A stretch of DNA of 64,000 bases from NCBI RefSeq assembly GCF_023516215.1, contig NZ_CP097349.1, positions 1,736,001 through 1,800,000 of the forward strand, in the 5' to 3' direction. The notes below the pieces were generated by a model. It worked only from the letters and a program-made list of their open reading frames with translations. It had not been told where the DNA came from and did no database searches. Origin of the DNA: Cytobacillus pseudoceanisediminis. GTDB taxonomy: Bacteria > Bacillota > Bacilli > Bacillales > Cytobacillaceae. How positions within the stretch are numbered: position 1 is the first letter of the stretch; each line of letters opens with the position of its first letter. A program made the position numbers and the translations under genes. Below, in pieces: positions 11,273-13,776 of the stretch.

Positions 11273-12676
11273 TTAAATAGCAGTTAATGCTTTTATAATG
11301 ATGTCCTCTTCATTTACAGTTACTGCCCGCAGGTCAATCAGTACTTCTTCTTTATGTATCCTCACTATTATGGAAGGAGTACAATTAATTCTTAATTGTC
11401 GGCCAATATGTTCCGGTGAGTAACGCCGGTGCTTTAAAACGGCAATCCAGGAAGGCAGTTCAACATCAGGCATTGTTCCTCCCCCAACTTGCCCTGTGCT
11501 TTTTCTCATAGAGCATTCATAATCCTTCGCAGCTGCTTGTAATCTGTGAAGAAATTGTGCAGTTCTCGTTTCGAGTTCCTCACTTGTCGTCATTACATCA
11601 TGGACTACCGGAATATTTTTCAGCCCCTCTTCCCCTTTTAAGTAATCAATAAGCGTGCCTTCGAGCGCTGCAATTGTCATTTTATCAACTCGAAGTACCC
11701 GGGCAAGCTGGTGTTTCTTCAGTTTTTCGATTAAGTCCTTTCTCCCGGCAATAATGCCTGCCTGCGGGCCGCCTAAAAGCTTGTCCCCGCTAAAAGAAAC
11801 GATATCTGCCCCCATTTTTATCACATCACTTACGGCTGGCTCATTACCGATTCCTTTGCTTTTAAAATCAAATAGTGCACCGCTGCCCAAATCTTCATAG
11901 AATATGATATTTTTTTCTTTAGATAGCTGGGCTAGTTCGTCAGTTCCAACTTCTTTGGTAAAACCTATTATTTTAAAATTGCTCGTATGTACCTTCATAA
12001 TCATGGCTGTATCTTCATTGATCACTTGTTTATAATCTTCTAAGTGGGTTTTATTCGTTGTTCCCACTTCAACAAGCTTTGCACCGCTCTCTTCCATTAT
12101 GCTTGATACCCTGAAGGAGCCTCCGATTTCAACAAGCTGACCGCGGGAAACTATTACTTCTTTTTCTTCTGCAAGAGCTTTTAGGATGATATAAACGGCA
12201 GCAGCATTATTGTTAACTGCCATCGCTGCTTCTGCTCCTGTCAGCTCTTTGACCAGGCTTTCCAGGTGACTATGCCTGGATCCCCGGGCTCCTTCGCACA
12301 GGTTATATTCCAAATTGGAATAGTTCATGGCAATTTCAAGCATATGTTCAGCTGCTGATTTGCTTAAACGCGCTCGGCCAAGATTAGTGTGAAGAATAGT
12401 GCCAGTGGCATTGATAACCCTTTTAAGAGTATATCCATACCGAACATTGATTACCTCTTCTGCTTTTTTAAATATATCTTCCGTAAATTTTTCCGTACCA
12501 GGCTCCTCGCCCGTCCAATTCCCTTCAAGAATGTTATTCCTGATTTCAGAAATTACCTCTTTTAAAATATTTGTTGTATGTATAAAGTCAAGTCCATACT
12601 GTTTCATTAAATGGGTAAAACGCCGGTCTTTTTGCAGTTCATGAACCGGTAAAATATTTCTGACTGTACTTTTCAT
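11273..12676 (-). CDS. selA: L-seryl-tRNA(Sec) selenium transferase (selenocysteine synthase)
   Basis: A 467-residue PLP enzyme converting seryl-tRNA(Sec) to selenocysteyl-tRNA(Sec) with selenophosphate. The N-terminal tRNA-binding helical region is present, followed by RVINATGTILHTNLGRARLS (typical SelA) and the PLP lysine in FSGDKLLGGPQAG. Length fits bacterial SelA, so it is not a short archaeal-type homologue. The start is ATG 12676 behind GGAGGGATCTTA. selB, selC and selD are not in the window. About 700 bases upstream on the same strand lies a gene with an in-frame UGA at a Sec position, which gives this enzyme a local substrate. Confidence 0.95.
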   Translation of the reverse strand: MKSTVRNILPVHELQKDRRFTHLMKQYGLDFIHTTNILKEVISEIRNNILEGNWTGEEPGTEKFTEDIFKKAEEVINVRYGYTLKRVINATGTILHTNLGRARLSKSAAEHMLEIAMNYSNLEYNLCEGARGSRHSHLESLVKELTGAEAAMAVNNNAAAVYIILKALAEEKEVIVSRGQLVEIGGSFRVSSIMEESGAKLVEVGTTNKTHLEDYKQVINEDTAMIMKVHTSNFKIIGFTKEVGTDELAQLSKEKNIIFYEDLGSGALFDFKSKGIGNEPAVSDVIKMGADIVSFSGDKLLGGPQAGIIAGRKDLIEKLKKHQLARVLRVDKMTIAALEGTLIDYLKGEEGLKNIPVVHDVMTTSEELETRTAQFLHRLQAAAKDYECSMRKSTGQVGGGTMPDVELPSWIAVLKHRRYSPEHIGRQLRINCTPSIIVRIHKEEVLIDLRAVTVNEEDIIIKALTAI

Positions 12677-12768
12677 TAAGATCCCTCCAGCACTTGCCTG
12701 ATTATTATATCATTTTTCACTATTTTGCATGAAATGAATACTATAGATTGAAACAAGGGGTTTTGAAA

Positions 12769-13170
12769 TTGAACAAAAAGGAAGATTTCCATCCGTTTAA
12801 TTTGGATAAATTGGAAAAATGGATGGAGGATTATTATCTGGACCCGCTGTCATCGTATTTGGATCAAATTACTTTTCGCATCGACTTATATGATACGGAA
12901 GCGGAAATTATTGTTGAGGCGCTCTTAACAGGATGCGTTTCAAAAGATGTAACCGTTTCCTTAAAGGAAAACACGGTGATCATTAAAGCGGTTAAAATAG
13001 ATGAAACTGACCCGATTCGCTGCGGCCAGCCATGTATGCGGAAAGTTAAGCTGCCTTTTTCAGTTATTAAAAACAGGGTAAGTGCAAATTTTTCCAATGA
13101 GATATTAGAAATTTTTATAAATAAAAATGAAGCTGGGCCAGGATGCGATAGAGATATCAGCATCAATTGA
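12769..13170 (+). CDS. Hsp20/alpha-crystallin-like protein
   Basis: A 133-residue protein with a beta-rich core (ITFRIDLYDTEAEIIVEALL, VTVSLKENTVIIKA, MRKVKLPFSVI) laid out as in small heat-shock or CotM-type alpha-crystallin domains. The start chosen is TTG 12769, eight bases after AAGGGG; TTG 12748 and TTG 12763 are weaker alternatives. The conserved A-x-x-x-n-G-v-L motif of Hsp20 is present only in weak form (RVSANFSNEILEI). It may be a spore coat-associated or general small chaperone. It is divergent from selA. Confidence 0.7.
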   Translation: MNKKEDFHPFNLDKLEKWMEDYYLDPLSSYLDQITFRIDLYDTEAEIIVEALLTGCVSKDVTVSLKENTVIIKAVKIDETDPIRCGQPCMRKVKLPFSVIKNRVSANFSNEILEIFINKNEAGPGCDRDISIN

Positions 13171-13222
13171 AAACTGAGATAGAGGTAGCCTTTCTGCCCT
13201 TTGTTTACATATAGTGAAACTT

Positions 13223-13360
13223 CAATCAGTGGTGTTTTATCCCCCACTGATTGTTAATTGAACCAATCGGGCCTTTACGGGCAGTTTGACCCCCACTTAT
13301 CCTCCATTGATTCCTCTGAGTCTTGAAGTGGGAGTCTTACTGCCCGTTAGACTGCGATAA
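13223..13360. repeat. Structured non-coding element with two large hairpins (possible MITE or IS200/IS605 end remnant)
   Basis: Hairpin 1 is a perfect 10-base stem, CAATCAGTGG (13223-13232) with CCACTGATTG (13244-13253). Hairpin 2 spans 13277-13347: ACGGGCAGT pairs with ACTGCCCGT, then after a TT/TT mismatch GAC-C-CCCACTT pairs with AAGTGGG-A-GTC, closed by a 27-base loop. There is no T tract and no coding frame. The architecture suggests a mobile-element end or a structured RNA. The family assignment is inference. Confidence 0.5.
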
Positions 13361-13376
13361 AATGTTATGGATCAGT

Positions 13377-13405
13377 AAAAAACCTCCTCCCTGGGGAGAA
13401 GGTTT
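13377..13405 (-). terminator. Terminator of the selenoprotein gene
   Basis: AACCTcCTCCC and GGGAGaAGGTT pair around a short loop, with an A6 run giving the U tract on the minus strand. It starts just after the TAA at 13412-13414. Confidence 0.8.
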
Positions 13406-13411
13406 GGCAGG

Positions 13412-13645
13412 TTATCCCTGCATCTTATCAATAATTTCTTTGGTTTTAGGAAAAATGCCAGTATCGAGCTTAGAATAAAGCTTTTCTCCATTTACTGTCA
13501 CTTCAAAAGCTCCGCCTTTACTTGGAACCAGTTCCATTTTTGAAATATCAGAGCGAAAATGTGTAAAAAGTTCTTCCGCGAAACTCGCGGCTTTTGGTGC
13601 GTAGTTTCACATCATGCAAAATTCAACAGTTACTTCATATGCCAT
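13412..13645 (-). CDS. Selenoprotein of the SelT/SelW/SelH (Rdx) family, in-frame UGA at codon 13
   Basis: From ATG 13645 (behind ACGGGGGTT) the frame reads MAYEVTVEFCMM, then TGA at 13609-13607, then NYAPKAASFAEELF and on to TAA 13412-13414, giving 77 codons. If TGA is Sec the active site is C10-M-M-U13, the CxxU redox motif of the Rdx fold. The rest fits the family: SKGGAFEVTVNGEKLYSK followed by a GIFPKTKEIID helix. No other in-frame stop occurs. A hairpin with bacterial SECIS geometry follows the TGA, and selA is nearby. Rdx proteins are small thioredoxin-like oxidoreductases whose substrates are mostly unknown. Standard gene callers would miss or truncate it. Confidence 0.88.
13566..13609 (-). 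promoter_or_regulatory. Candidate bacterial SECIS element, including the UGA codon
   Basis: On the minus strand the UGA (13609-13607) is followed 21 bases later by the apical loop AGUUU, closed by CCGCG (13590-13586) with CGCGG (13580-13576). A lower stem AAAAG with CUUUU lies beyond a five-base bulge. A G among the first two loop bases and a 16-37 base UGA-to-loop distance are the published bSECIS criteria, and both are met. Confidence 0.75.
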
Positions 13646-13776
13646 ATTTAAACCCCCGTGTGTAATTTGCTAAAATGTAAATATAATGACATTTTAGTAT
13701 AACTATTTCATTACTGCAAATTGATTTATTTTTCCTTCTTAATCGCTAAAAAAGAAAAAATTTATGGAGTGATCTT

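Follow-up and report, generated by a model that had tools for sequence, protein, structure and literature searches.

The window analyzed here is a stretch of 64,000 nucleotides from Cytobacillus pseudoceanisediminis. Its minus strand carries, upstream of selA, a short frame that reads through a TGA codon and that a first-pass annotation had taken for a selenoprotein gene; we coin the name rdx for it. The features of the locus, in window coordinates, are as follows.

13412..13645, minus strand: rdx, SelW-like selenoprotein gene, 77 codons from ATG to TAA, with UGA as codon 13
13607..13609, minus strand: the UGA codon, inferred selenocysteine (Sec), second redox residue of FCMMU
13576..13590, minus strand: bacterial SECIS hairpin CCGCG-AGTTT-CGCGG, starting 16 nt after the UGA
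13653..13657, minus strand: GGGGG ribosome-binding run, 7 nt 5' of the rdx ATG, present in most close relatives
13691..13720, minus strand: promoter-like TTTGCA-18-TAAAAT, conserved in most close relatives
13670..13697, minus strand: palindrome CTAAAATGT-N10-ACATTTTAG, immediately 3' of the -10 box of rdx
13383..13402, minus strand: intrinsic terminator, 3' of rdx
11273..12676, minus strand: selA, L-seryl-tRNA(Sec) selenium transferase (TIGR00474, 552 bits; cut-off, 267.9)

The frame is laid out as the annotation had described it, with TGA at codon 13, a TAA stop, no further in-frame stop, a ribosome binding site before it (the GGGGG run), and a terminator after it. Its translation begins MAYEVTVEFCMMU and contains one in-frame TGA before the TAA end. 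With the UGA read as Cys, the protein matches the Pfam Rdx model (PF10262) at 78.6 bits (cut-off, 22.6) over residues 4 to 74, a span that includes the UGA, and the NCBIfam model CXXU_selWTH (TIGR02174) at 64.3 bits (cut-off, 34.2); against the NCBIfam equivalog SelTWH_Campy (NF041051) it scored 80.8 bits, about 7 below the cut-off of 88. Among locus rows of relatives, which overlap in genomes, 69 of 72 have UGA at this codon, and the other three are one Cys gene sequence retrieved three times. The annotation had raised the possibility of a sequencing error; the identical TGA is present in separately sequenced relatives. Downstream of the UGA, dN was 0.05 to 0.27 in 11 comparisons and dS was 0.3 to 1.8 in 10 of them, the eleventh not being computable. 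Since the Pfam match runs across the UGA, relatives keep the UGA, and dN is low, the frame is more than a chance occurrence.

The Sec machinery is encoded in the same genome. selA lies 0.7 kb downstream of rdx. Also found were selB (374 bits; cut-off, 242), selD (424.5 bits; cut-off, 125; L010:1480-2600), and, by its Rfam match (58.3 bits; cut-off, 47), the tRNA-Sec gene selC with anticodon TCA. An Rfam scan of window positions 1 to 30000 gave no match. This selD itself has an in-frame TGA, at KGGUGC, as do 33 of 33 selD matches in the genus. The closest genome is that of Cytobacillus oceanisediminis 2691 (L051), with identical gene order, SelA 98% identical, and Rdx 98% identical when the UGA is scored as a mismatch. 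Of the 22 candidates from a scan of 0.8 of the 5.69 Mb for further selenoproteins, 5 had a Cys close to the UGA, and among those 5 only SelD and rdx look real by eye. Sec-type FdhA was considered as a client and rejected: none of its 7 matches in the genome has an inner stop. Motif searches did not locate the residue at the Sec position of these matches.

In the available text of a 2026 review (PMC13188914), the bacterial SECIS (bSECIS) model has a stem of 4 to 16 bp, a loop of 3 to 9 nt with a G in the first two loop positions, a UGA-to-loop distance of 16 to 37 nt, and an energy of -7.5 or lower. The rdx hairpin lies within every one of these published constraints, with a 5-bp stem, a 5-nt loop (AGTTT) that has G at position 2 and begins 21 nt after the UGA, and an energy of -9.3 kcal/mol; it is weaker in some relatives (e.g., -6.3 in L046 and L047). 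Random synonymous recoding of the window sequence forms the five pairs with a probability of 0.07, so the hairpin of a single sequence is weak evidence and it is the comparison across sequences that counts.

For this comparison, 67 distinct Sec sequences were drawn from 88 of 92 loci, leaving out the 4 loci of a divergent second Rdx type. In these sequences, whose genomes are related such that a Fisher value overstates independence, the five standard pairs and the G at loop position 2 are kept in 67 of 67; all five pairs are Watson-Crick in 64, a G-U pair occurs in 3, and stem and loop are identical in 44. When synonymous codons were swapped among sequences, 2000 codon-aware permutations yielded at most 55 fully Watson-Crick stems, against 64 observed. 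Sliding the partner strand lowered Watson-Crick pairing from 99.1% to between 2 and 41%, a contrast biased in favor of the stem by its having been chosen on the same sequences. Compensatory changes were also found: C-G to U-A (GCC to GCT with GCG to GCA) and G-C to A-U (GCG to GCA with TTC to TTT) are both silent, and in two sequences GCG to GTG with GCG to ACG alters the protein and retains the pair. The Rdx match, the sel genes, the TGA of relatives, and the SECIS hairpin support the first-pass reading of a selenoprotein, which had mentioned neither the hairpin nor the neighboring selA, and by these sequence tests rdx appears to be a genuine, overlooked selenoprotein gene.

Cytobacillus eiseniae (L083; identical sequence in G004) carries TGT in place of the Sec codon. 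Its peptide 3' of the Sec site is unchanged (NYAPKAASFAEELFTHFR; AASFAE kept), and its hairpin has only 3 of the 5 pairs; the decayed hairpin beside the intact peptide constitutes a natural control for SECIS function. The lineage retains selA, selB, and a TGA-bearing selD. In a SelA tree of 38 rows, the C. eiseniae genome falls among Sec-bearing ones, in a group of 18 with 98/91 support (the sister group of 17 has 93/85, under the tool's star threshold, and the root is for drawing only), and from this placement the difference is most simply read as a change from Sec to Cys. Documented Sec-to-Cys changes are mainly limited to FdhA and SelD, according to the portion of the 2026 review available (PMC13188914), and the C. 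eiseniae Rdx looks like a case outside these two proteins.

The predicted structure of the rdx protein (pLDDT, 91.7; 19-row alignment) has strands at residues 3-10, 34-42, 47-51, and 54-58 and helices at 16-33 and, last, 68-76, and the CxxU loop of this model lies between the first strand (E3-10) and the first helix (H16-33). Its best fold matches are the SelW-related structures 2fa8 and 2obk (TM, 0.84 to 0.91); the bacterial SelW-related 2oka and 2p0g are other near solved folds, and mouse SelW (2npb) compares at a TM of 0.73 with 25% identity. The UGA column is Cys in both PDB alignments printed (2fa8 and 2obk) and in C. eiseniae, in agreement with the earlier placement of the TGA at the second redox residue of a CxxC/CxxU motif; across homologues, the codon-13 column is Cys or Sec. 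Family score, position of the CxxU loop, and SelW fold, the latter two judged on the predicted model, all place the protein in the SELENOW-like/Rdx family. It shares the whole fold and the redox loop with the solved Rdx proteins (2fa8, 2obk, 2p0g, and others), but 2fa8 and 2obk have Cys where it would have Sec, and the bacterial solved chains are longer (103 to 108 residues versus 77 codons). Mouse SelW has the SelW fold in common with it and carries a CxxU motif too. A difference from mouse SelW is that eukaryotic SECIS elements are located in the 3' UTR (PMC1088965, available text).

The CxxU proteins of PF10262 are catalogued as a selenoprotein family in the accessible parts of a 2022 review (PMC9312934) and the 2026 review (PMC13188914), and rdx belongs to this known kind of SELENOW-like CxxU selenoprotein. 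With bacterial members it shares the family model, the fold, a CxxU motif with Sec second, and a bacterial SECIS. As among rdx relatives, Sec forms outnumber Cys forms among the SelW-like proteins of an ocean survey (427 versus 56 in the excerpted text of PMC2398784). Earlier surveys recorded few such proteins in this group: the passages available count 3 Bacillales selenoproteins in 2006 (PMC1794560) and 35 SelW-like organisms across all bacteria in 2016 (PMC5029168). A further difference is that here rdx lies within a sel cluster.

We consider it almost certain that rdx encodes a small thioredoxin-like selenoprotein of the SelW/Rdx family, with hairpin-guided Sec decoding and a probable thiol/selenol redox role. 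In the mechanism that we propose, SelB and Sec-tRNA(Sec) would decode the UGA at codon 13 during translation, guided by the hairpin that begins 16 nt 3' of it. Cys10 and Sec13 would then lie in the predicted CxxU loop that joins strand 1 to helix 1. Judging from family and fold, the product would most likely act as a thiol/selenol redox protein via a transient selenenyl-sulfide bond and would be reduced by a cell thiol or by thioredoxin. Its position among selA, selD, or selB suggests that this role may be linked to selenium handling.

The first-pass remark that selenoproteins are uncommon in Bacillaceae does not hold for the family surveyed here, in which 170 of 193 genomes have selB and 160 have Rdx. 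In these searches (selB in genus and family at E 1e-70, which fragments could escape; absence in G177, G189, and G192 inferred from gaps in the selB match list), 157 genomes had both, 3 had Rdx alone, 13 had selB alone, and 20 had neither. The three with Rdx and no selB match (G078, G145, and G189) are 66, 94, and 66% complete, respectively. Because 13 of the 170 selB-positive genomes are without an Rdx match, Rdx is not essential to the Sec trait. The TGA is present in 149 of the 150 family matches listed, out of 163, and absent in 1. Within the genus, Rdx is present in 32 of 36 genomes, in 31 with the TGA and in 1 without, and all 32 also have selA, selB, and selD; each of these three genes occurs in 33 genomes, and three genomes are without all four. 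In G021, selA, selB, and a selD match covering 214 of 311 positions were found and an Rdx match was not; this genome is perhaps one with a decaying Sec trait, or a broken assembly. In a sample of the order, Rdx occurs in 165 of 397 genomes, with the TGA in every match listed.

A second Rdx type was seen at four loci (L093, L094, L095, and L102) in two other genera. It has the motif YCTAU with an in-frame TGA and is 40 to 42% identical, and by eye there is a possible hairpin at the equivalent place. No sel gene was found within its 3.2-kb loci.

In many genera, rdx sits inside a sel gene cluster. It is followed by selA in 33 of 34 named loci, adjoined by a divergent selD in 13, and directly preceded by selB in 5 (order selB-rdx-selA); neither selD nor selB adjoins it in 16, including the 14 nearest to the window. 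Within 3.2-kb loci, which overlap in genomes and are related, selA was near in all 24 best-scoring family loci of the same Rdx type and selD in 23, and the 29 genus loci had selA near in 28 and selD in 9. In the literature as available to us in part, with subscription journals sparsely covered, we found no description of rdx within a sel cluster of Bacillales, and a literature search for Cytobacillus with selenoprotein returned nothing.

This arrangement allows a more specific reading, which we regard as rather unlikely, in which Rdx is a selenium-handling partner whose CxxU motif binds or reduces selenide and either passes the selenium to SelD or protects SelD or SelA. Its place beside selA, selD, or selB in many loci would fit such a partner, but clustering may also reflect shared regulation or joint transfer, the selD of this genome lies about 71 kb from rdx, and the second Rdx type is not near sel genes. 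Co-occurrence can be read both ways: among the 23 family genomes in which selB was not matched, 20 are also without an Rdx match, in either Sec or Cys form, yet joint loss of a Sec-dependent enzyme and the trait would give equal co-occurrence, and 13 selB-positive genomes have no Rdx match. In favor of a partner, the C. eiseniae lineage has kept the protein after its Sec-to-Cys change, along with selA, selB, and a TGA-bearing selD; against it, Cys Rdx proteins occur in other phyla. The in vivo donor system for SelD is described as incompletely known in the available text of the 2026 review (PMC13188914). Given the clustering and the lack of Cys-form Rdx in those 20 genomes, where a Cys form would have been possible, a selenium-handling role is worth testing. 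On this tentative and somewhat doubtful proposal, the SelW-like protein of Bacillales would belong to the Sec pathway as a dedicated component, acting as a self-fed redox or selenium carrier from which SelD receives selenium. Such a carrier would be made by the very machinery that it serves, in organisms in which SelD is itself a selenoprotein. The rdx locus offers a tractable genetic setting for bacterial SelW function and for selenium delivery to SelD.

The preferred reading of a redox selenoprotein was also weighed against one in which the 12 codons before the UGA are a selenium-sensing leader that sets selA expression, with the downstream frame incidental. rdx and selA share a strand, with rdx upstream, and in L065 and L068 the two matches are about 90 nt apart; however, the sequence downstream of the UGA is under purifying selection and predicts an Rdx fold, and in the window an opposite-strand open reading frame (ORF) and the terminator lie between rdx and selA. 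We therefore think a leader very improbable, although a coupling effect on selA beside a real protein is possible.

A search of 5.8 billion proteins returned 53 homologues, which, sorted partly by eye where the pattern failed, have Trp at the Sec position in 44 cases, lack the region in 8, and have Cys in 1 (C. eiseniae). One entry, P0026, differs from the L070 protein only in having W at the position of the L070 TGA; its Trp therefore most likely stems from the misreading of a TGA, and we infer the same for the Trp of the other entries. A selenoprotein omitted or misread in the searched database is thus widespread across a Bacillales family. That the UGA ends a pseudogene as a normal stop, stems from a sequencing error, or encodes Trp is extremely improbable, because the Trp of the database entries is most likely the gene callers' reading of TGA, because error and pseudogene are ruled out by the UGA, the selected hairpin, and the purifying selection that relatives keep (UGA in the 69 locus rows and 149 listed family matches given above), and because Trp is ruled out by the tRNA-Sec and by the apparent use of TGA as a stop in this genome, at the end of selD as judged by family length.

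Upstream of rdx, promoter-consensus matches in the region numbered 5, compared with 4.6 in shuffles, which is no excess. The palindrome directly after the -10 box is a possible repressor site or other putative operator. Among 34 aligned loci, it occurs in the Cytobacillus clade only and is altered in several members; within 2 changes, its one match in 0.8 Mb is itself, and within 3 changes, in one orientation, none was found in the selB, selD, and selC loci.

Between rdx and selA lies an Hsp20-like ORF (12748-13170, plus strand, TTG start, 140 aa) that converges on rdx and diverges from selA; it recurs in the Cytobacillus clade, with weak matches at some other loci. The interval between rdx and this ORF (13171-13412) holds a repeat of about 150 nt; across 0.8 Mb of genome sequence, there are three more copies, 81 to 89% identical. 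Visual inspection suggests a similar insert upstream of rdx in L054.
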